Positions 567 to 15,990 of a DNA stretch of 64,000 nucleotides are shown here, one piece after another; the stretch's first letter is position 1, and each line of letters opens with the position of its first letter. Source of the DNA: Salinirubellus salinus (GTDB lineage: Archaea > Halobacteriota > Halobacteria > Halobacteriales > Haloarculaceae). Position numbers and translations under genes: made by a program. The stretch spans positions 2,852,001-2,916,000 of the forward strand of contig NZ_CP104003.1 in assembly GCF_025231485.1 (NCBI RefSeq), in the 5' to 3' direction. The notes beneath the pieces were generated by a model that saw only the letters and a program-made list of their open reading frames with translations, made no database searches and had not been told where the DNA came from.

Positions 567-700
567 GTCTCTCGTCCCTATTGACCTCCTCCCGCGCCTG
601 AAGACGCGGGAATCCCACCACGGGATTTCAGGCCGAGCGTGGCCCTACGGTTTCAAGACGCATACGTTCCAAGCGTCTCTTGCTTGGTAGCATCGGCTTG
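565..700 (-). ncRNA. Predicted omega RNA (reRNA) of the TnpB at 653-1888
   Basis: In this family the guide RNA of TnpB is made from the 3' end of tnpB and the right end, and the guide is the DNA just outside the element. Here the two hairpins at 591-627 follow the tnpB stop. The guide would begin at base 580 on the minus strand and read toward 561, next to repeat copy R1. This is placement by family rule; no direct evidence of the transcript is visible. Confidence 0.35.
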
Positions 701-1888
701 GCTGTCTTGTGGGGCGGTCAAACGCCCCCCATCCTCAGCCGAGTCATCGTCGTTCTCGTGTTCTCTGAAACGACTCTCTCCGCTGAGGTAGCGGTCTGCG
801 ATGTTCACCGCCCCGTTCACGTCCGCTTGGTACTCACCCATCCAACACGCATCGTTCGTACACTTGAACGTCGCCTGTCGTGGGCGGTATCCTACCTCAC
901 CGCACGCATGACACTCTTTCGAGGTGTTGCGCGGGTTCACCGTTTCGACAGGGATGCCCTTCTCGACGGCTTTGTAGCGTATCTGCGCGTGAAGTTTGGC
1001 GAATCCCCATCCGTGGAGACGGCGGTTCATGTACTCGCCGTAGTCCATCGACTCCCGTATATACGTCAGGTCTTCCAGAACAAGAACGGGATTCTCGACG
1101 GACTCGGCGTACTCCACGACTTCGCGGGTGACGCGGTGGAACACGTCGTCTATCTGGTTCCACAGGTCGTCCCCAAAGGACTCCGCGATGCACTCACTTC
1201 CGCGTGTCTGGAGTCGCCGTGTAGCGGTGAAGTATGTCTTACGGAGCCGACGGACGGTTTTGCCCTCGTCGGCCCACAGTTCGGGAGCGGTCGGAGAACC
1301 GTGCCTGTCGCGGTGACACACCGTGACGAGTGACGCTTCTCCAATATCGACTCCGATGGGCGTCCGTTCTTCGGCGGACACCTCGGAACCATCCTCTACG
1401 TCGCGGGTCGTGGTGACGTGGAGATACCACGTCCCATCTCGCTCGAATAGCCGACTCTCCCCCATCGTGGCGTCTCCCGCGTTCAACGCTTCCAACCAGT
1501 CCCGCTGTTCGGGATTCGGTTGTGCTGGCATCCAGAGGTGGTAGTCCTCGTGGTGCGGGATTTTGACGTACCACTCGATTGCGTTCTCGGGCTTGTGGTC
1601 GAGCCGTAGCCCTTCGTTCGTGAAGCGAACAGGGTGGTCGTCGTGAAGTTCGCCCGCGTTGTATGTCGTCGTGAGTTGCGGGACGTACTGTTTGAGCGCA
1701 TTCTTCGCGTACCCGCTCAGGTCGTAGTTGATCACTACGTCGTTCGCTTGGGTCTGCGTGGTGCATCGGGCGTTGAACGCATCGTGAAGGGCCTGTTGGT
1801 ACGCCTCTCGCGTCTCTCGGAGTTTCCTCCGCTTGTGCGCGTTCGGCTCTACCAGTTTGAGTTCCAGCGTCTTCGTGAGTTCAGTCAC
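653..1888 (-). CDS. tnpB: TnpB, RNA-guided RuvC-like nuclease of an IS200/IS605 element
   Basis: This 411-residue protein starts at GTG 1888, whose GTGA overlaps the tnpA stop. A longer frame upstream exists but would run through tnpA. RuvC catalytic residues are visible: Asp in GVDIGE (about residue 181), Glu in LVLEDL (about 272) and Asp in QADVNGA (about 356). A zinc finger lies between the last two (CHACG and CTNDAC, about 326-348). All catalytic positions are intact, so the nuclease is probably functional. TnpB cleaves DNA at donor sites and helps the element persist. Confidence 0.93.
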   Translation of the reverse strand: MTELTKTLELKLVEPNAHKRRKLRETREAYQQALHDAFNARCTTQTQANDVVINYDLSGYAKNALKQYVPQLTTTYNAGELHDDHPVRFTNEGLRLDHKPENAIEWYVKIPHHEDYHLWMPAQPNPEQRDWLEALNAGDATMGESRLFERDGTWYLHVTTTRDVEDGSEVSAEERTPIGVDIGEASLVTVCHRDRHGSPTAPELWADEGKTVRRLRKTYFTATRRLQTRGSECIAESFGDDLWNQIDDVFHRVTREVVEYAESVENPVLVLEDLTYIRESMDYGEYMNRRLHGWGFAKLHAQIRYKAVEKGIPVETVNPRNTSKECHACGEVGYRPRQATFKCTNDACWMGEYQADVNGAVNIADRYLSGESRFREHENDDDSAEDGGRLTAPQDSQADATKQETLGTYAS

Positions 1889-2274
1889 GAATCGTCCTCC
1901 TCGTGCCTCTGAATGTAGTTCATGACCGTTTCGCTGGATACGTGTCCCGCCGTTCCTGCGTAGTACCCGCGCGCCCATCCGATTTTCTCTCCGTCGTCGT
2001 CGGCGTAGCGGTGGTTGTACTTCCGCGAGGAAATACCCTTGAACCAGTTGGCGAGGAGAGATGGGGCGTGCTTCGGCGGGCTACTAACAAACAGGTGGAT
2101 GTGATCGGGCTGAACGGTCAGGTCGAGTATTTCAAGACCCTTGTCGTCGGCTATTTCGTGGAGGATGGTTCGCACACGGTCTGCGACCTCGTTGACGAGT
2201 ACCGACTGTCGGTACTTCGGCAACCACACGAGATGGTAGTTGAGATTGTAGGTCGCGTGACGTGTGGTCTTCAT
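1885..2274 (-). CDS. tnpA: TnpA, Y1 HUH transposase
   Basis: This 129-residue protein has the normal length for IS200/IS605 TnpA. The HUH motif is H58-I-H60 within PDHIHLF and the catalytic tyrosine is Y120 in MNYIQRH. The N-terminal YNLNYHLVWLPKYR is characteristic. It excises and inserts single-stranded element DNA using the end hairpins. It is upstream of tnpB and overlaps it by four bases, so both are expected from one transcript. It appears intact, so the element may be mobile. Confidence 0.95.
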   Translation of the reverse strand: MKTTRHATYNLNYHLVWLPKYRQSVLVNEVADRVRTILHEIADDKGLEILDLTVQPDHIHLFVSSPPKHAPSLLANWFKGISSRKYNHRYADDDGEKIGWARGYYAGTAGHVSSETVMNYIQRHEEDDS

Positions 2275-4437: not shown

Positions 4438-4689
4438 TCGTCACAAGACAGGCGGTACAAGTAGTCAGACCGCATGAAGAGGCTCAGAACTCAGAATAAC
4501 AGTACGAGCAGCAAAGCGATGGAAATTCCTAATCACCCAGATATGTGGTCTGTGAGACAACACATACACTTATGTGTCATTCCAATTAGAAGAGTTCACA
4601 GCCACGTTCTGGATGAAAGGAGAACCCGTCCACGAGACAGCTCGTGTCTGGGATACGGCCCACTGCCGAGCACGATACCCAGAGAACAC

Positions 4690-5358
4690 ATGATGATGGA
4701 TAAAACCGCACGGCTCGACGGCATCTCGCGCAGAAAACTACTGAAAGCTAGTGCGGTCGGCGTCGGCTCGCTGGGGCTGGCAGGGTGCACGAGTGCCAAC
4801 ACTCCACAGGACGTTCCAACTCTGGCAGGTTCTGTCCCAGAATTGGACCTCGACACGTTGCAGGCTGAAACGCCTGCAGGGACCATCACGGCTGAGCAGA
4901 TTTGGGCGGAGAACACGTACGTCGGCGCAGTTGACGAAGAACTGTACATCGGGATTTCGTTTCCAGAGGACCCCAAGACGGCACAGGAGGCCACAGTCTA
5001 CCTGTGCGATGGTGAAATGGCCGAGTACCTGACTGGTGAGGTCAGGGCCGGGACGAATATGCTCGAGGGGGAATTGCTGGACATCGAGTTGTCGTTCGAT
5101 GATGGTGTTGTGAGCGGGGTGGTGATCCAAGACGGCGAGGAGCCCCGGCCGTTCGTCGCGAACGAAGCCACCGGCGATGCAGGTCTATACTCGGCAGAGT
5201 TCACCTTCGAAAGCGATGAATATCGACCGTACTGGATCGTCCTCGCCGACGGCAGCCAACGAGGGCAGGCTTGCTGGCGGTGCTGTGGCCGGATCTGCAC
5301 TATCTGTTGTTGTGCTCCCGGCTCGTGCTTAGTCCAGAAGTCAGTGACCCACGACTGA
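4690..5358 (+). CDS. Tat-secreted lipoprotein with Cys-rich C-terminus
   Basis: The start at ATG 4690 places a twin-arginine signal (ISRRKLL) and lipobox LAGC (Cys about 33) at the N-terminus; an earlier in-frame ATG at 4474 would bury it. The mature part is an acidic, beta-rich domain of about 160 residues of unknown function. The C-terminus carries eight Cys in 19 residues (CWRCCGRIC then TICCC, then GSC), suggesting metal binding or disulfides outside the cell. The last residues QKSVTHD and the stop lie in the right end of the tnpB-only IS, so the original C-terminus was altered by that insertion. Confidence 0.8.
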   Translation: MMMDKTARLDGISRRKLLKASAVGVGSLGLAGCTSANTPQDVPTLAGSVPELDLDTLQAETPAGTITAEQIWAENTYVGAVDEELYIGISFPEDPKTAQEATVYLCDGEMAEYLTGEVRAGTNMLEGELLDIELSFDDGVVSGVVIQDGEEPRPFVANEATGDAGLYSAEFTFESDEYRPYWIVLADGSQRGQACWRCCGRICTICCCAPGSCLVQKSVTHD

Positions 5359-6765
5359 ACTCGTGGGCTTGTCAGTGGACTCCCCTTCTGCCGTCGCTTT
5401 GACGGAGGCGTGGAAATCGCCATTCAGGTTCAACATCCCTGACGTCAGCGCACACTGACAGGGTGCGCCTCCACCCGAAGACGTCTGCCCCGAGTGGAGT
5501 CGCTTGAGCAGTTTCCGAGCAATGTTCTTGCTCGCATTATAATCCGCGTTCAGTTCATACTCGCACTTCTGACACACGAACTGGTGTTTCGACCGCCGAT
5601 TGCTCTCGTGGGTAAACCCACACGACGAACACCGCTGCGACGTGTACGCAGGACTCACCTGCTCGACCTCGATGCCGTACATCTCGGCTTTGTATTCGAC
5701 GTACTGGTAGAGACGTCGAAATGTCCATGCGTGGAATCGCTTCGCACCAGCCATCCGCTTGCGAATATCAGTCAAGTTCTCGAACGCAACGTGGGTGCAG
5801 TCGTGGGCGTGGGCTTCTTCGAGAATCTTGTTCGAGGCGCGGTGCAGTTCGTCTTGCATCCAGCGGTGCTCACGGTCGTTCATCGACTGAATCGATAAGT
5901 GTGCCGACCGCGTTCCTGCCTGTTGCATCGACCCGCGAGTCTTCTCATACTCTCGGCGTCGATGATTCATCTCGTCGGCGTTCCCAACGAACGCGCCCGT
6001 GGAAGTCACGGCGAGCGAGCCGTCCACGTTCAGGTCAACACCAAGGACTGTTCTGTGCTTGGCGTCTTCAGAAGGAGTCGTGGACTGCTCTTGCTCACTC
6101 GTTCGGCGCATCCGTGCGTGGAGGTAGAACGACTCTGTGGAGCGGTCGTACTGCAACGTGGACATCCGGAACTCGTAGTCTTCGTTCAGTAGGTACTCAC
6201 CAATCGGTGTCTCCTCGGCTTCGGCGGGAAGCACGTAGTCACACTCGACGCGACCGTTCACTGTCGAGAGCGAGACGTGGTCGCGGTGGAACGTCGCACT
6301 TCGCTTGTCGTAGACGACGCTCCACGCATCGAAGTGTGGCTGACTTGTCTTCTCACCTTTCTTGAGTCGGGCGACACCGCTTTTTGTGGCCTCGATAGCA
6401 CGCCGAATCCCTTTCTGGACGAGGTTCGCAGTCAACGCCGTCTCGTTGCGGAGTTGGTCGTAGAGGGCGTTCTCGGCTGTCTGTTTCGAGGTCACGCAGT
6501 GGTCGTTCGGGTATCGCCACGCCCACTCTGCGGTGGTGTTCGCACAGTGGAGGAACTGGGTTTTGGTCTGATGGAGGTCGTCGCACCGCTCGTCAGGTAC
6601 ATCGAGTTTGACCTTGACGGTGCGAATCACGTCCATCGTTAGTTCACATATCGAAGTGCTTCTTTAATATAATTCGGGTTAGCGTGGGGGAGTCGGACTA
6701 CTATCGCTCGTGGGTTGTTTCGAGCCTTGTCGGATTCCTCCCACGGCTCAAGCCGTGGGCTTCCT
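5335..6765 (-). mobile_element. IS200/IS605 family, tnpB-only (IS1341-type) element
   Basis: The element has one gene, tnpB, with no tnpA. Both ends carry similar hairpins: CCCACG/CGTGGG at 5348-5367 (right end) and a perfect 9-bp stem CCCACGGCT/AGCCGTGGG at 6740-6759 (left end). Elements of this type depend on a TnpA elsewhere. The right end enters the 3' end of the Cys-rich lipoprotein gene. Exact termini are uncertain by about 10-15 bases. Confidence 0.85.
5341..6636 (-). CDS. tnpB: TnpB, RNA-guided RuvC-like nuclease (IS1341 type)
   Basis: This 431-residue protein is full length for the family. RuvC residues are Asp201 in LGVDLN, Glu286 in VAFENL and Asp365 in NADYNASKN. A four-cysteine zinc finger is at about 336-358 (CSSCG, CQKC). 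ATG 6636 begins the conserved TnpB N-terminus (VIRTVKVKLDVPD). The C-terminal ~50 residues extend into the right-end hairpin, where the omega RNA should be formed. Sequence is clearly different from the TnpB at 653-1888, so this is a separate element. Confidence 0.93.
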   Translation of the reverse strand: MDVIRTVKVKLDVPDERCDDLHQTKTQFLHCANTTAEWAWRYPNDHCVTSKQTAENALYDQLRNETALTANLVQKGIRRAIEATKSGVARLKKGEKTSQPHFDAWSVVYDKRSATFHRDHVSLSTVNGRVECDYVLPAEAEETPIGEYLLNEDYEFRMSTLQYDRSTESFYLHARMRRTSEQEQSTTPSEDAKHRTVLGVDLNVDGSLAVTSTGAFVGNADEMNHRRREYEKTRGSMQQAGTRSAHLSIQSMNDREHRWMQDELHRASNKILEEAHAHDCTHVAFENLTDIRKRMAGAKRFHAWTFRRLYQYVEYKAEMYGIEVEQVSPAYTSQRCSSCGFTHESNRRSKHQFVCQKCEYELNADYNASKNIARKLLKRLHSGQTSSGGGAPCQCALTSGMLNLNGDFHASVKATAEGESTDKPTSSVVGH

Positions 6766-7385: not shown

Positions 7386-9230
7386 ATGAGTGACCAACTG
7401 CCATCTCGGCGGCGGGTCCTCCAGCTGGTCGGTGCTGGCGCTGTCGGAGGGTTCGCTGGGTGTAGTCAGACGAGTTCGACCGAGACGCCCAGCGCTACCC
7501 CGCGGGGAGCGACAGACACGCCGACCGACACACCGACGAGCGCGCCGACGGACACCCCGACGGAGACGCCCACCGAGACGTCGTCACCGACGCCCGAGGA
7601 GTGCACTGAGGTCGGCGGCACCGTCGAGGCGGGGACCACGTTCGACGGCTGTTACCTCGTCACCGACACGCTCGACGTCGCCTCGGGGACGCTAACAATC
7701 ACGGCCGGTTCGGAACTGGTGTTCACCCGTGGGACCGGGATGGAGGTGCGCTCGAAGGGTGTCCTCGTGGCGCAGGGAACCGAGAGTGACCCCGTCACGA
7801 TGCGCGGTGAGACCGAGGACAAGGGGTACTGGGACGGCGTCGCGATCCACTCACGGAAGCCCGCGAACACGATGCAGTACGTCGAACTCTCGTCGGCCGG
7901 AGGGAGTCGCTGGGACCCGTGCTGCCCGCGGGCGACCAGTAAGGCTGGCCTCAACGTCTGGGACGACGGCATCGTGACCGTCCAGCACTGCACGTTCGCC
8001 GGCAACGCACGCTACGGGCTCGCGGCGACGTCGAGTGCAGACCTCCGGGACTTCTCCGCGAACACGTTCGCCGACAACGGTCGGGCACCGATGGCGACGA
8101 CGACCGACAACCTCGACGCGCTCGACACCGAGACGGAGTACGGCGATGGACCGGTCGACGTCCGGGCCAGGAACGTGTCGGACTCCGGAACCTGGCGGCA
8201 CATCGGCACCGCGTACCGGATGTATGGCCGCCCGGAGATCGTCGACGACGCCGTCGTCACGGTCGAGGCCGGATCCGTGTTCACCTTCGCCGAAGACGCT
8301 GGCATCCGGGTGGCTTCGGGGACACTCTCCGTTGAGGGGAGTGAGGATGCGCCGGTAGTGATGCGTGGGACGACGCCAGTCTCCGGTTTCTGGCGTGGTC
8401 TCTCGATCCAGTCGAAGAAACCGGACAATCGGCTGCAGTTCCTCGACATCGCCCACGGTGGCTCCGGGAACTGGGACCCGTGCTGTCCCAACAACTCCGC
8501 CCCGGCGAACGTCAACGTCTTCGACGACGCCATCGCCTCGATCGTGAACGTGACTTTCTCCGACAGTTCGAACTACGGCATGCTCCTCTCTTCGGGCAGT
8601 GAACTCGTGGAGTTCGCGCGCAACACGTTCCGGAACAACGAGGAGGCGAGCGTCTGGCTCACGGCGAACAACCTCGGCGTACTCGACGCGGCGACCTCCT
8701 ACGACGGCGACGACGACGCACCGGTCGTCGTCCGGGGCAACGACGTGACCGAGGACGCGACCTGGAAGTCTCTCGACACGAACCACGTGGTCGAGAAGAA
8801 CTCGACCATCACCGTCACCGGCGACGCCAGCGTCACGGTCGATGTCGGCGCGGACTTCCACTTCCGAGAGGACGCGGGCCTGCTCGTCGAGGATGGGGCC
8901 AGCCTCTCGGCGATCGGTGACCCGGCGGACCTCATCGTCTTCGAGGGAACCACCGAAGCAGCCGGGTGGTGGAAGGGTATCGCCTTCACCTCGCCCAGCA
9001 CCGGGAACGAGATAGCGCACACGACGATCGAAGACGGCGGCAGCGGCAAGTGGGACCCCTGCTGTCCCAACCAGAGCCGCAACGCGTGCATCAACGTCTT
9101 CGACGGCGGCTACCTGAACCTCCACGACTCGTTCGTTGTCAACTCCGAGAACTACGCCACGTGGGTCGACGGGAGCTCCACGCTCGACAGAAGCGACAAC
9201 ACGCTGATGGACCCGGCCGGCTCGGCCTGA
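7386..9230 (+). CDS. Tat lipoprotein with three beta-helix-type repeats
   Basis: This 614-residue protein has a twin-arginine signal (SRRRVLQLVGAG) and lipobox FAGC (Cys26). A Thr/Pro-rich linker follows to about residue 70 (TDTPTDTPT-type). Three units of about 190 residues then repeat, each with a hydrophobic strand, a G-W/Y/F-W-x-G-hydrophobic turn, an N-T-hydrophobic rung pattern and a strictly kept WDPCCP at about residues 176, 363 and 556. The rung pattern suggests a right-handed parallel beta helix outside the cell. The paired Cys suggest disulfide or metal binding. Function is unknown; it stands alone between repeats R4 and R5. Confidence 0.88.
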   Translation: MSDQLPSRRRVLQLVGAGAVGGFAGCSQTSSTETPSATPRGATDTPTDTPTSAPTDTPTETPTETSSPTPEECTEVGGTVEAGTTFDGCYLVTDTLDVASGTLTITAGSELVFTRGTGMEVRSKGVLVAQGTESDPVTMRGETEDKGYWDGVAIHSRKPANTMQYVELSSAGGSRWDPCCPRATSKAGLNVWDDGIVTVQHCTFAGNARYGLAATSSADLRDFSANTFADNGRAPMATTTDNLDALDTETEYGDGPVDVRARNVSDSGTWRHIGTAYRMYGRPEIVDDAVVTVEAGSVFTFAEDAGIRVASGTLSVEGSEDAPVVMRGTTPVSGFWRGLSIQSKKPDNRLQFLDIAHGGSGNWDPCCPNNSAPANVNVFDDAIASIVNVTFSDSSNYGMLLSSGSELVEFARNTFRNNEEASVWLTANNLGVLDAATSYDGDDDAPVVVRGNDVTEDATWKSLDTNHVVEKNSTITVTGDASVTVDVGADFHFREDAGLLVEDGASLSAIGDPADLIVFEGTTEAAGWWKGIAFTSPSTGNEIAHTTIEDGGSGKWDPCCPNQSRNACINVFDGGYLNLHDSFVVNSENYATWVDGSSTLDRSDNTLMDPAGSA

Positions 9231-9533: not shown

Positions 9534-11186
9534 GTGGTACCTCCAGTTGGCGGCTTCGTGGCACTCTTCGGCTTGGCAGCATTCGCTTGCTTTGGCTCTC
9601 TGTGGCGTGTTCACCGCCTCGAAAATCCCGAAATCCGCCGAGGGCTCGCTGGGCTCCTCGTCACAAGCGGCCTCTGGGCTGCCATCGAAACCGTCCGTCT
9701 GATGATCGCTGCGCCAGAACTCAAGATCGGGCTTTATACTGTCGGTCTCGCCATCGGGCTCGCCACTGTCGGGGCATGGTTGTACTTCTGTTCGGCCTAC
9801 GCCGGCCACGACTATCACCGACAGTCGCTGCTCCGAACGGGAGCGCTCAGTCTCTATCTCACCGTCGTCGTCGTCAAGCTCACCAACCCGCTCCACCAGC
9901 AGTATTTCTCCGCGAGCGTCCTCGAGATGCCGTACCCTCATCTCGTCGTCGAACTCCTGCCTCCTCACTGGATCGTCACCGGTATCGCGTATGCGCTCTC
10001 TGCCGTCGGGCTCTACATGTTGTACGATACCTTGCACACGTCCAGATACGCGACCGCCTCACTCGGGGTGGTCGTGTCACTGACGGCGTTGCCGGTCGGC
10101 CTGACTCTGGCGGGCCACATCTGGTCGACAGTCCTCCTCGAACTCAGCTACGAACCTGTCGGAGTCGCAGCATTCGCCGTCGGCGTGGTCTACTTCGTCG
10201 AGGAGAAATTCGTCGCAGTGCCCACGTTTGGTCGCCAGCAGGTTATCGACAATCTGTCCGACCCGGTGGTGCTGCTGGATCGGGAAGGAGAGGTTCAGGA
10301 CTACAACCCTGCCGCTATACGGGCGTTTCCAGCGCTCGACGGTGAAGTTGGTCGGAGGCTCGAGATGGTTGCACCGGACCTCCTCGCGGCCAGCGACGAG
10401 AGAGGCGTTCTGACACTCACTCGCGACAGCCGCGACCGGTACTACGTGCGCAACGAGAGTCCAATCACCGTCGGGTCAGCTGCACTCGGGCGAGCACTCG
10501 TGTTCGTGAACGTGACAGACGTTGAGCAGCAACGTCAGGAGCTGGAGCGACAGAACGAGCAACTCGACGGGTTTGCAGATGCTATCAATCACGAGCTTCG
10601 GAACACGCTCGCCATCGTTCAAGGGAGTAACGAACTGGCGGCAACACGCCTCCCGCAGGATGCTGATCCAGTCGTGGCGGAGATGCTGGAGACGGTCGAC
10701 CGGACGGCAGATCGGATGGCACGGGTCGTCGGGGACTTGTCGTTGCTCGCCCGTCACGGTCAGAGTTTGGATGCCGTGAGCGACTGTCCGTTTCAGGAGA
10801 CGGTCGAGCGAGCGTGGCGAGATGTAGCCGTTGAGGGGCTCACACTGACGACCGACGGGGACGGTATCATCGAGGCGGATTATGATCGTCTCGTGGCGTT
10901 GCTAACGGAGGCGTTCCAATTCGCGGCGACGACGGACTCGACGACGGTGGCTATCAAATTACGCAATGACCAGGTCGTCGTAACGACCGACGGTGAGTCG
11001 ATTCCAGCCAGAAAGAGCGCGGAGGCGTTCGAGTACAACGCCGCGGTACCCAGTGCCCAAGCAGGCATGGCACTGCCGAATATCATGATGTTGGCCCGCG
11101 TGCACGGATGGAGTGCCAACATCGATGCCGCGTACGAGGAGGGGGTGCGTCTCGTGGTCCGAGGCCTGTCGACTGAACGGGTATGA
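9534..11186 (+). CDS. Membrane sensor histidine kinase, degenerate ATP-binding domain
   Basis: This 550-residue protein has about seven N-terminal membrane segments (to ~residue 225, the 7TM sensor type common in haloarchaea). A PAS domain follows at about 235-335, then a HisKA helix with phospho-acceptor His353 in INHELRN. The catalytic domain lacks key residues: the N-box Asn is missing in the helix LLTEAFQFAATT, the G1 box reads TDGESIP rather than DxGxGIP, and the G2 box (AQAGMALPN) lacks GxGxGL. ATP binding is doubtful. No response regulator is adjacent. The start is GTG 9534. Confidence 0.85.
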   Translation: MVPPVGGFVALFGLAAFACFGSLWRVHRLENPEIRRGLAGLLVTSGLWAAIETVRLMIAAPELKIGLYTVGLAIGLATVGAWLYFCSAYAGHDYHRQSLLRTGALSLYLTVVVVKLTNPLHQQYFSASVLEMPYPHLVVELLPPHWIVTGIAYALSAVGLYMLYDTLHTSRYATASLGVVVSLTALPVGLTLAGHIWSTVLLELSYEPVGVAAFAVGVVYFVEEKFVAVPTFGRQQVIDNLSDPVVLLDREGEVQDYNPAAIRAFPALDGEVGRRLEMVAPDLLAASDERGVLTLTRDSRDRYYVRNESPITVGSAALGRALVFVNVTDVEQQRQELERQNEQLDGFADAINHELRNTLAIVQGSNELAATRLPQDADPVVAEMLETVDRTADRMARVVGDLSLLARHGQSLDAVSDCPFQETVERAWRDVAVEGLTLTTDGDGIIEADYDRLVALLTEAFQFAATTDSTTVAIKLRNDQVVVTTDGESIPARKSAEAFEYNAAVPSAQAGMALPNIMMLARVHGWSANIDAAYEEGVRLVVRGLSTERV

Positions 11187-11673: not shown

Positions 11674-12345
11674 TCAGCCTCCAAGCAACGTCTCGAGGTC
11701 GGCCAGCGAGTCGAGCTCGGCAGCCGGATCGACAGCCGGGTCGATGTCGGCGTTGTGCTCGCGTCGTAGCAGCACCCCGTCGAGCCCGGCCCGCTCTGCG
11801 GCGAGCAGGTCGGTCTCGCGGTCGCCGACGTACAAGCCGTGGTCGGCACCGAGCGCCGCCACGGCCGCCTTCAGGTAGTGGGGATCGGGCTTGCGCCTGT
11901 GGAACCCCTCGACGCCGGGGTCCCGGCCGCGGACGAACGCGAACGGTGGCAGGTCGTGGTGGTCGACGACCGTCCGGACCACGCCGTCGTAGTTGTTGCT
12001 GACCAAGCCGAGTTGGTGGCGCTCTGCGAGCCCAGAGAGCGTCGCCACGTCGGCATAGCGCGTCCTCACGCCGGCTTCGACACGCTCGGCGAACCAGCGC
12101 TCGCTGTGACGCTCGCGGGTGTCGTAGAACGCCACCGGATCGACGCCGACGGCCTCACAGGCCTCGACGAACGCGCGATCGTACTCGTAGCCGGCGAGTC
12201 CCGCCCGCTCGGCGTCGGTGACCGTGAGGTCGTACTCCTCGAGCGTTCGCGTCAGTCCCGCCTCGTACCCGGTGGTGTCGTTGGCGTGCCCTTCCAGCAA
12301 CACGCCGTCCATATCGAACAGGACGACGCGGTCCTCGCTCGTCAC
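11674..12345 (-). CDS. HAD-superfamily hydrolase
   Basis: The gene starts at GTG 12345, whose GTGA overlaps the stop of the upstream permease. The 223-residue product has HAD motif I (VVLFDMDGVLLEG, with the DxD pair), a motif II region (LGLVSNNYDG), Lys in HRRKPDP (motif III) and motif IV (LYVGDRETDLLAAERAG). The helical cap between motifs I and II fits phosphoglycolate-phosphatase-like members. Cotranscription with a phosphonate-type transporter suggests it dephosphorylates an imported or derived organophosphorus compound. This role is inferred from context. Confidence 0.9.
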   Translation of the reverse strand: MTSEDRVVLFDMDGVLLEGHANDTTGYEAGLTRTLEEYDLTVTDAERAGLAGYEYDRAFVEACEAVGVDPVAFYDTRERHSERWFAERVEAGVRTRYADVATLSGLAERHQLGLVSNNYDGVVRTVVDHHDLPPFAFVRGRDPGVEGFHRRKPDPHYLKAAVAALGADHGLYVGDRETDLLAAERAGLDGVLLRREHNADIDPAVDPAAELDSLADLETLLGG

Positions 12346-13136
12346 CGTACCAGCGCCCTCGTGTACGCCGAGAGGCTCTCGGTCGCGACGACCACGCCGA
12401 GGATGACGAGTAGCACCGTCGCGACCGACTGCCACGCGAAGGCGTTGACCGCCCGAAACAGCTGGACGCCGATCCCGCCCGCGCCGACGAACCCGAGGAC
12501 GGTCGAGTCGCGGATGTTGATATCCCACCGGTAGATCGAGAGCCCGACCAGCGCGGGTTTCACCTGCGGGAGGATGCCGTAGAGCAACACCTGGACCGAG
12601 GACGCCCCGGCCGCACGAACCGCTTCCACCTGGCCGAAGTCGATCTCCTCGATCTCCTCGCCCAGCAGCTTTCCGAGGAAGCCGATCGAGCGGAAGGCGA
12701 TGGCGACCGCCCCCGCCAGCGGTCCCGACCCGAACAGCACGACGAAGAACAGCGCCCAGATGATGGTGTTGACCGACCGGCTCACGGTCACGACGAGCTT
12801 TCCGAGCCAGAACGTTGCGGCGTTCGGCGTCGTGTTCTCGGCAGCGAGCAGCGCCACCGGAATCGAGAGCACCAGCGCGCCGATGGTCCCCAGCGCGGCG
12901 ATCTGGATCGTCTCGATCAGCGGCCCGACGATTCGAGTGGTGTACGCCACGTCCGGCGGGTACATCCGGACGAGGAGGTCGCCGACCTCTCGGGGGATCG
13001 TCTCCGGTCTGACGATACCGATATCCATGAACTGCCAGGACCCGACCACGGCGACGGCGGCGACCACCGTGAGGACGAAGCGGCCGAGTCGCCGCCGGCG
13101 GTCGAACCGTTCCCAGCGGCGCTCGTCGGTCGCCAT
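12342..13136 (-). CDS. phnE: Phosphonate/phosphite-type ABC transporter permease
   Basis: This 264-residue membrane protein has about six hydrophobic segments. It carries the PhnE-type cytoplasmic loop that docks the ATPase (VEAVRAAGASSVQVLLYGILPQ) and the conserved end region IYRWDINIRDSTVLGFVGAGG. It is closely similar to the adjacent upstream permease, consistent with a duplication giving a heterodimeric channel. ATG 13136 overlaps the upstream stop by one base. Confidence 0.93.
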   Translation of the reverse strand: MATDERRWERFDRRRRLGRFVLTVVAAVAVVGSWQFMDIGIVRPETIPREVGDLLVRMYPPDVAYTTRIVGPLIETIQIAALGTIGALVLSIPVALLAAENTTPNAATFWLGKLVVTVSRSVNTIIWALFFVVLFGSGPLAGAVAIAFRSIGFLGKLLGEEIEEIDFGQVEAVRAAGASSVQVLLYGILPQVKPALVGLSIYRWDINIRDSTVLGFVGAGGIGVQLFRAVNAFAWQSVATVLLVILGVVVATESLSAYTRALVR

Positions 13137-13936
13137 CAGTTGTACCTCCGTCGGACGACTGCGCTCACGCCTTCAGCTACCAGCACGACCGCGATGATCG
13201 ACAGCAGGATGGCCGTGACGTACTGGTAGTCGTACCGGTTGAACGCGGTCAGAAGGACCGACCCGATCCCACCCGCACCGACGATACCGATGATGGTCGA
13301 CGTGCGGATGTTGATGTCCCACCGGTACACCGAGAGCCCGGCGAACCGCGGGATGATCTGCGGGACGACCCCGTACAACAGCGTCTGCACCGGCGACGCT
13401 CCGGAGGCACGCACCGCGTCGACCGACCCCATATCGATGTCTTCCAAGTCCTCGGCCAGCAGCTTCGAGAAGAAGCCGACCGTCTTGAACGTAATCGTGA
13501 GGATGCCCGCGAGCGGCCCGAACCCGATGGCCTTGACCGCGATGATGGCGACGATGATGGCGTTGAACGCCCGGGAGACCGATATGAATCCTCGGTTGAT
13601 CGCGTACAGCGGCTTCGGGGACAGGTTCTCCGCGGCCATGAACGCGATCGGGACGCTGAGGACGATGCCGGTGAGCGTCGAGACCATCGCCATCGCGACG
13701 CTCTCGAGCATCTTCTCGAGAATCCGCTCGGTCTGTCGCGGGGTCGCCGACGGGGGGAGAAAATCGCCCACCAGGGAGACGGCGCTCCCGAGCCCCTGTG
13801 CGATCCGTCCTGGGTCGGCGCCGACCCCGAACCCAGACCACACGAAGAAGCCGAGAATCCCCGCGTAGACCGCCCACTTGAGCTCTCGACGCCGAAAGAC
13901 GGTCGGGCGCTCCCAGGTGCGTTCGCCGGCCGCCAC
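13136..13936 (-). CDS. phnE: Phosphonate/phosphite-type ABC transporter permease
   Basis: This 266-residue permease is paralogous to the next gene. It shows the same docking loop (VDAVRASGASPVQTLLYGVVPQ) and YRWDINIRTSTIIGIVGAGG. It starts at GTG 13936, one base after the stop of the ATPase gene. With PhnC and PhnD it should form the importer in the cytoplasmic membrane. Confidence 0.93.
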   Translation of the reverse strand: MAAGERTWERPTVFRRRELKWAVYAGILGFFVWSGFGVGADPGRIAQGLGSAVSLVGDFLPPSATPRQTERILEKMLESVAMAMVSTLTGIVLSVPIAFMAAENLSPKPLYAINRGFISVSRAFNAIIVAIIAVKAIGFGPLAGILTITFKTVGFFSKLLAEDLEDIDMGSVDAVRASGASPVQTLLYGVVPQIIPRFAGLSVYRWDINIRTSTIIGIVGAGGIGSVLLTAFNRYDYQYVTAILLSIIAVVLVAEGVSAVVRRRYN

Positions 13937-13937
13937 G

Positions 13938-14777
13938 TCAGCTCTCCCCCTTCAGCGATCGATCGGCCTCCGCGAGGACCCTCTCGTCTTCGTCCGTCTC
14001 GGCGGACGTGTCCGCCTTCCTGCCAGTGTTGTCGGGGATCTCCGCGCCACGGTACACCTGATCCAACCCTCGCTCGTCGAGTGCGGCCGGCGGCCCTTCG
14101 AAGACGAGCTCACCGTCGTGGAGGCCGACGATACGATCGGCGTGCTCGATCGCGAGGTCGACCTCGTGGATGTTGATCAGCACCGGCACCTCGCGCTCGG
14201 CGGCGATGTCGGTCAACAGCCGCATCACCGTGTTCGACGTCTCGGGGTCGAGACTCGACGTCGGCTCGTCGACCAGCAGAATCTTGGGCTGTTGGATCAC
14301 GGCCCGCGCGATGCCGACCCGCTGGCGCTGGCCGCCGGAGAGTTCGTCGACGCGTTTGTTCTCCATGTCGCCGAGGCCGACCCGCTCGAGGATCTCGTAG
14401 GCCCGCTCGATGTCCTCCGCCGGGAACGACCGGCGGAACGCCTTCCAGGCCGATACGTACCCCAGCCGGCCCGTGAGGACGTTCTCCATCACGGTCAGCC
14501 GCTCGACCAGGTTGTACTCCTGAAATATCATCCCGATGTCCCGGCGGGCCGACCGAAGCGCGTCGTCACCGAGGGACGTCAACTCCGTGTCGTCGAGGTG
14601 GACCTCGCCGCCGGTGGGCTCGGTCAACCGGTTGATACACCGGATGAACGTGCTCTTGCCGGCCCCGCTGGGACCGATCATGGCGACGGTCTCGCTCCCC
14701 TCGACGGACGTCGTGACGCCTTTCAGCGCCTCGTCGCCCGTCGGGTAGGTCTTCTGCAGGTCGGTTACCCGGAGCAT
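13938..14777 (-). CDS. phnC: Phosphonate/phosphite-type ABC transporter ATPase
   Basis: This 279-residue ATPase has Walker [10 protein letters not shown] (about 35-43), Q-loop [11 protein letters not shown], signature LSGGQRQR, Walker [13 protein letters not shown] and an H-loop (INIHEVDLA). The order and the Q-loop wording are typical of PhnC. It begins immediately after the phnD stop. A ~40-residue charged C-terminal extension follows the domain. Confidence 0.95.
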
Positions 14778-15965
14778 CTACGATCCCAGCGCGCTCTCGG
14801 TGTACTCGACGCCGTTGTAGCCCTGGATGATCATGATGTCCTTGAATACCGTCCGGTAGTCGATCGGAACGAACTGGTCGTAGCCGGTTCGCTCCTGGAA
14901 GGCCGTCCCGGCGAAGTCAGACTCGAGGTACGCACGCTCGATTCCCGCCTGGATTTCGGGTTTGAGATTGTACCGGTAGGCAACCGGTCCGTTCGGGAAC
15001 GGTGCCGACGCCCAGACGACTTTGAAGTCGTCGAAGCTCAGATCGCTCTGTGCCTCGACGGTGTCGACCATACAGGTCGAACAGATGGGGCCGGCGTCGT
15101 AGTCGCCAGCCGCGATGCCGCGGGTCGTGTTGCCGTGGCCGCCCGAGAAGTTGACCTCGTAGTCCTCCTCGGCAGTCACATCGAAGTACTGGTCGAACAG
15201 AGCCGACGGAGCCTGGTGGCCGGAGTTCGACGCGGGCTCGGAGTGGCCGACTGTCACCTCGTCACGGGCGAAGTCCTCGACGCTCTGGATGTCGTCGGCG
15301 TCGGCGCGCGTGGTCGCGAACAGCCGGTACCCGAAGAGCTTGTCGGGCGTGAGGCCGGCCGCGAACGGGACCGCCCCAGCCAAGTTGACGGCGAAGGCCG
15401 TCGTCCCGGTCGAGAAGTTCGCGATGTGGGCCCGTTCCGAGCGCATCGCCTCGACCGACGCCGCGTAGCTGTTGACCTTGCTGAACTCGACGGGCTTGCC
15501 AGTCTCCTCCTCGATGCGGTCGAAGACGGCCTGGAAGTCCTCCTCGAACCGACCCTGGACGTCCTCGCTCGGGCTCTCGGTGAACACGAGGGTGTCGGGG
15601 TCGAGCAGTTCGTCCTCGTTGTCGGGCGTCTCCCGGACCGGCTCACCGTGGGGAACCTCGTCGACCTCGCGGTTGCGCATGTTCTCGAGGTCGACCGTCG
15701 ACCCGCGCTGGTAGTCCGCGTCGACCAGCGCCGACGACAGGTAGTTGTTCTCCTCCCAGGCCGGACTCGCCGGTTCGAAACTGCCCGAGTCCGCGAGCAT
15801 CGGGTCACCGCTGGAACCGCCAGAGCCGCCCGAGCCGCCGGAACTGCCCGCCCCCGAGTCCCCGGAACTCAAGTTCCCCATACACCCGGCGAGTCCGGCC
15901 GCCAGTGCGGCCGCGGAACCCTTCAGAAACACACGCCGTCTGTTATCGCGTCCGTCGTCAGACAT
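14778..15965 (-). CDS. phnD: Phosphonate/phosphite-type substrate-binding lipoprotein
   Basis: The product of about 395 residues has a Tat-like signal (NRRRVFLKGSAAAL) and lipobox LAGC, followed by a Ser/Gly linker. The body matches PhnD-type binding proteins: FTESPSEDVQGRFEEDF, NSYAASVEAMRSERAHIANF and GHSEPASNSGHQAPS. ATG 15965 is preferred; a GTG three bases earlier is in frame. Phosphonate, phosphite or phosphate esters are all possible ligands. It is the first gene of the operon, behind a promoter with overlapping palindromes at 15991-16020. Confidence 0.93.
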   Translation of the reverse strand: MSDDGRDNRRRVFLKGSAAALAAGLAGCMGNLSSGDSGAGSSGGSGGSGGSSGDPMLADSGSFEPASPAWEENNYLSSALVDADYQRGSTVDLENMRNREVDEVPHGEPVRETPDNEDELLDPDTLVFTESPSEDVQGRFEEDFQAVFDRIEEETGKPVEFSKVNSYAASVEAMRSERAHIANFSTGTTAFAVNLAGAVPFAAGLTPDKLFGYRLFATTRADADDIQSVEDFARDEVTVGHSEPASNSGHQAPSALFDQYFDVTAEEDYEVNFSGGHGNTTRGIAAGDYDAGPICSTCMVDTVEAQSDLSFDDFKVVWASAPFPNGPVAYRYNLKPEIQAGIERAYLESDFAGTAFQERTGYDQFVPIDYRTVFKDIMIIQGYNGVEYTESALGS

Positions 15966-15990
15966 CACCTGAGTGGTAGGATTTCCACTT

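Follow-up and report, generated by a model that had tools for sequence, protein, structure and literature searches.

In a haloarchaeal family of surface-type lipoproteins built from tandem beta-helix units, one loop of the unit varies between proteins, whereas the repeats within one protein tend to have similar loops; once overall divergence is matched, no other position of the unit shows this pattern as sharply. The position was recognised through a Salinirubellus salinus protein encoded at 7386-9230 (+) of the 64,000-nucleotide stretch of DNA analysed here (the window; NZ_CP104003.1, positions 2,852,001 to 2,916,000), in which every unit carries the motif WDPCCP. In this protein the repeat-matched variable loop takes the form WDPCCP.

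The open reading frame was checked against the sequence and encodes 614 amino acids. The N-terminus (RRRVLQLVGAGAVGGFAGC26) contains a twin-arginine signal and a lipobox (7386-7463, +), for which most relatives have RR...(L/A/F)AGC; the match to TIGR01409 was sub-threshold only. The lipobox is real, in agreement with the lipoprotein of the initial annotation, and membrane anchoring is predicted. A Thr/Pro/Ser/Glu-rich linker of about 46 residues follows (7464-7601, +), resembling the linkers found after other lipoboxes in the genome, and then an N-cap (7602-7652, +) with Cys73 and Cys89, probably joined by a disulfide. The cap pair is widespread in relatives, where it lies about 34-36 and 13-16 residues ahead of unit 1. 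The three repeat units, each assigned by a match to the unit profile, are located at 7686-8045 (residues 101-220), 8250-8606 (residues 289-407) and 8826-9185 (residues 481-600), and their WDPCCP loops at 7911-7928 (residues 176-181), 8472-8489 (residues 363-368) and 9051-9068 (residues 556-561), all on the forward strand. Besides the adjacent pair, unit 1 contains Cys202 (7989-7991, +), where several relatives also have a cysteine (in an NCT motif), and unit 3 contains Cys568 (9087-9089, +), 8 residues past the CC pair; unit 2 has no other cysteine.

A triplication with units of about 190 residues that diverged broadly and kept WDPCCP at the same place had been proposed from the sequence, and both parts of this description were confirmed. 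The motif occurs exactly three times, with spacings of 187 and 193 residues, and unit 3 is cut short by the end of the protein. Over the 124 columns of the unit alignment 27 were identical in all three units, with a pairwise framework identity of 24-36%. The longest run of columns identical in all three units was WDPCCP itself (6 columns), a length reached in 0.6% of column shuffles, and the average identity within the protein was 32% for the framework versus 56% for the loop. At the nucleotide level the units were 48-54% identical, and the codons of the motif differ synonymously (CCG/CCC, TGC/TGT). Both the synonymous differences and the saturation of the flanks speak against a recent copying from repeat to repeat. 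Given that the motif was retained without recent copying while the rest diverged, this comparison supports the view that WDPCCP has been kept by selection inside this protein. In the roughly called genes of the window cysteine accounts for about 0.76% of residues, and only two of these genes encode CC dipeptides, the 7386-9230 protein and the lipoprotein at 4474-5358.

The beta-helix suggested by the initial annotation was corroborated by the match to Pfam PF13229 Beta_helix (48.8 bits against a curated cut-off of 25.9 bits, E 7.5e-13; residues 377-606, which take in unit 3), and the relatives tested also exceeded this cut-off. PF13229 is a very broad family, and in contrast to these proteins it includes neither the three- or four-unit lipoprotein architecture nor the cap cysteine pair nor the loop. 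Structure prediction, one of the checks proposed for the motif, was carried out on unit 2 (residues 259-479) with units 1 and 3 supplied as alignment. The resulting model was a strand-rich solenoid of modest quality (mean pLDDT 57.9, about 70-83 in the beta-strand core) that aligned at Z 8-11.7 with right-handed beta-helix proteins of solved structure, a group in which polysaccharide lyases, epimerases and tailspikes were frequent. Among these, the AlgG epimerase (4nk6/4ozy), pectate lyase family 3 and PARMER_00599 (4mxn) gave Z 10.7-11.7 at about 9-13% identity to the unit, a likeness of fold that shows no function. WDPCCP occupies residues 105-110 of the model, within a loop that connects two strands and has a pLDDT below 50. 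A Foldseek search with the unit model gave no match at E <= 0.001, a sequence search of solved structures returned chance-level matches only, and no Pfam lyase or hydrolase model matched the protein; the full-length prediction from the single sequence reached a mean pLDDT of 40.6. The predicted beta-helix fold is thus well supported by sequence family and moderately by structure.

Relatives were found in 12 other genomes among the 146 searched from the same taxonomic family, and further ones came from profile searching in 391 genomes of the class Halobacteria. One relative was found in another family of the order (36-genome subset), and outside the order 295 genomes drawn from the phylum gave a single further, weaker match (G466). 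No relatives turned up in a first protein-based scan that covered a collection of bacterial and archaeal genomes as well as viral contigs. Full-length identity to the window protein was 29-33% over an alignment of 650 columns, and most relatives have a twin-arginine lipobox and 3 or 4 units plus cap. The family was defined here by at least two tandem units plus cap, full-length similarity and a twin-arginine lipobox, all of which are found in the window protein. The relatives resemble it in unit length, number and order as well as in cap and lipobox; they differ in that their loops lack cysteine and instead read W-N-P-N-Y-S-P, F-T-W-A, I-F-A-P or E-Y-W-S-A-D, or are absent. Across the family, the cysteines that recur widely are that of the lipobox and the two of the cap. 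The unit profile yielded 73 units from 25 proteins, the window protein included, a set that also contains weak matches with one or two units each (G166, G201 and G315). One relative (G316; L042 / L143) is split into two overlapping frames of 470 and 535 aa, and its sequence suggests a four-unit protein interrupted by a frameshift or a sequencing error. In the libraries searched there was no family name for haloarchaeal three- or four-unit twin-arginine beta-helix lipoproteins, and in the literature no description of haloarchaeal beta-helix lipoproteins built this way was found; the variable surface proteins with parallel beta-helix repeats described in a Haloquadratum paper are large membrane proteins.

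Loop matching was examined by comparing unit pairs within proteins with unit pairs between proteins at equal framework identity, a matching that controls roughly for the common descent of units in one protein. In a sliding comparison along the unit, the excess of within-protein identity peaked at +0.30 (0.42 vs 0.13 expected) at the position of WDPCCP, and for segments that neither overlap nor adjoin this loop it ranged from -0.10 to +0.10. When the loops were aligned pairwise, the identity was 0.485 within proteins vs 0.27 (0/5000 resamplings, a figure that is no true probability since the unit pairs are not independent). The result did not depend on the window protein, without which the values were 0.48 vs 0.273. 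Two control loops gave 0.425 vs 0.38 and 0.40 vs 0.367, an excess of 0.03-0.05. The tendency is not uniform, and five proteins (G144, G079, G078, G316 and G090) showed little loop matching. In the framework tree the first units of the relatives G019 and G404 were placed together (support 95), as were the last units of G078, G090, G256, G144 and G049 (support 88), and the units of the window protein formed one group with moderate internal support (82 for units 1 and 2). For G019 and G404 the loops follow the protein (GDRFTWAPAAG with GDRFTWAQEPA; GDSFIFAPARA with GDDWIFAPARA) although the first units are orthologous by framework.

We propose that the 7386-9230 product is a lipid-anchored, right-handed beta-helix at the cell surface, composed of three diverged units of about 190 residues, each of which would expose one loop between the same two strands. 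The solenoid would then show the same ligand-contacting loop once per unit, and recognition could be multivalent, with weak contacts adding up along a repetitive target such as a cell-wall or environmental polysaccharide or a glycosylated S-layer. The Trp of WDPCCP occupies the site of the aromatic residue that is common near the loop start among relatives. Outside the cell the adjacent cysteines probably form a vicinal disulfide, a rigid non-polar patch beside the Trp, and the two together might make up a sugar-contacting patch. Among the possible roles of vicinal disulfides is contact with the undecorated face of sugar rings; they can also stabilise structure, act as switches and work on mobile loops (PMC12102755). 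The ligand sites described there (e.g. arabinofuranosidase 1wd4) share the adjacent cysteine pair with WDPCCP; they have no homology to the window protein, whose own disulfide is putative. The explanation as a whole, a surface solenoid presenting matched loops for multivalent binding, is the likeliest of those considered and is put forward tentatively. More doubtful is the wider proposal that a haloarchaeal beta-helix scaffold serves as a binding array through a loop diversified between and uniform within proteins, with the Trp and vicinal-disulfide loop as the variant in the window; a loop of the WDPCCP type was found in no other repeat-unit protein of the 25-protein set.

The initial annotation had taken the conserved Cys pairs to indicate a structural, metal or redox function, and for the family this was not supported. 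Only 3/73 units have CC in the loop, all of them from the window protein. That the CC pair varies freely in homologues, which had been named beforehand as evidence against such a function, was indeed found: none of the 70 units in the 24 relatives carries it. CC is therefore not a family-level site, and a family-wide metal or redox site was ruled out as a candidate. At the position of WDPCCP the relatives have loops such as FTWA, IFAP, EYWSAD, YHHS and LWHG; two loops, WNPNYSP and WNPNHEP, have W-(N/D)-P in common with the window protein, and in some relatives the loop is shortened or absent (GGDWA, RESDG). From the sequence comparison, a function of the CC pairs that is private to the window protein is possible. 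A search for other WDPCCP proteins, also proposed as a check, found none that matches the unit profile outside the window protein. The codon pattern of the motif was present in 2/391 haloarchaeal genomes, three times in this genome and once in G003 at a locus without a match to the unit profile. Across about 85,000 bacterial and archaeal species there were 58 WDPCCP places, none in a protein matching the unit profile, and those in frame look like chance frames. WDPCCP as a motif common to other organisms was accordingly rejected.

A private function could be that the six loop cysteines bind soft metal ions (Cu, Zn or Hg) or cycle between thiol and disulfide. We regard this as unlikely, even though the adjacent pair is kept in 3/3 units and the protein has a weak similarity to the copper-binding family NosD (PF05048; E 0.0073, 16.2 bits vs a cut-off of 23.6 bits) that overlaps the general beta-helix signal. 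The likeness to NosD is one of fold, with the unit model matching 7o0y and 7osf at Z 10.0 and 8.7, and differs in that no nos genes were recognised among the neighbours examined. In two genomes (G047 and G049) the gene next to the relative encodes a heavy-metal P-type ATPase that carries an HMA domain; however, the loop cysteines are absent in all relatives, these two included, no His/Cys/Met cluster is kept near the CC pair, and the window gene is flanked by a 7TM histidine kinase gene and a transposon.

Alternatively, the CC pair might staple the loop to the helix body, or one molecule to another, with no ligand involved. The solvent outside the cell is oxidising, and units 1 and 3 each have one extra cysteine (C202 and C568) as a possible partner of the loop. 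Against this, relatives fold with no staple at all and C202 is probably not a dedicated partner, because relatives without loop cysteines also have a cysteine there. Unit 2 moreover has no third cysteine, and its CC would therefore be, within the unit, a vicinal disulfide, a thiol pair or a metal site, of which the vicinal disulfide would be the simplest state in an oxidising exterior. A staple as the sole role of the pairs thus seems improbable. Least probable is that the loops are alike without any function, through gene conversion or recent duplication, as might be suggested by the clustering of the window protein's units in the framework tree, the generality of within-protein loop matching and the concerted evolution known from other repeat proteins; the nucleotide identity of 48-54% and the synonymous differences in the motif leave no recent copying visible, and the excess is limited to one loop and not spread over the unit.

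The genes surrounding the family were compared as well. Upstream of the window gene lies a transposon with a TnpB-like gene (5341-6636, -) and downstream a gene for a histidine kinase whose sensor region is of the 7TM type (9534-11186, +). The relatives in G047 and G049 (L144, L145) lie between the HMA-domain ATPase and PAS/response-regulator histidine kinases; the neighbours of other relatives include MutS, a leucyl-tRNA synthetase-like gene, ThiC and TBP. Histidine kinases recur near the relatives in G047, G049 and G316 and near the window gene, and are common genes in haloarchaea. No conserved gene neighbourhood was found across the relatives examined, and there was no pointer to a pathway or to polysaccharide metabolism. 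The CC-rich lipoprotein noted in the neighbouring module exists (4474-5358, +, start probably near 4690) but belongs to a family unrelated to the 7386-9230 protein. This lipoprotein is of the twin-arginine type and has a C-terminal tail rich in Cys, CWRCCGRICTICCCAPGSC; Pfam matched nothing in the protein beyond the signal. Its relatives L136 and L137 (47-52% identity) end in GCACLPPFVSPCCMLGL and GCACVIPYTGPCCTCCLLE, and the CC tail is therefore a feature of that small family. The TnpB-like gene encodes a Cas12f1-like TNB domain, has no adjacent TnpA and is accompanied by palindromes at about 5348-5367 and 6741-6765. The end of this gene overlaps the last codons of the lipoprotein, so that the insertion may have replaced its natural C-terminus. 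Elsewhere in the window there is an IS200/IS605-type pair at 653-2274 (-), consisting of a Y1 transposase (1885-2274) and a TnpB-like gene (653-1978), and at 12342-15968 (-) a phosphonate-type ABC transporter (substrate-binding lipoprotein, ATPase and permease) beside a HAD-like hydrolase gene.

Taken together, the observation of the repeated motif and the beta-helix interpretation are sound, and a metal or redox role is unsupported at the family level. The case illustrates that a motif which resembles a conserved active site within a single protein may belong to that protein alone. The repeat-matched variable loop is a more interesting result than the CC pairs, WDPCCP being its cysteine-containing instance, a variant that would be a rare example of an archaeal surface protein with repeated vicinal disulfides. 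If the loop matching holds, it provides a testable handle on archaeal surface proteins that have had no assigned role: one loop per unit would set the specificity, and a change made in all units should shift the target.
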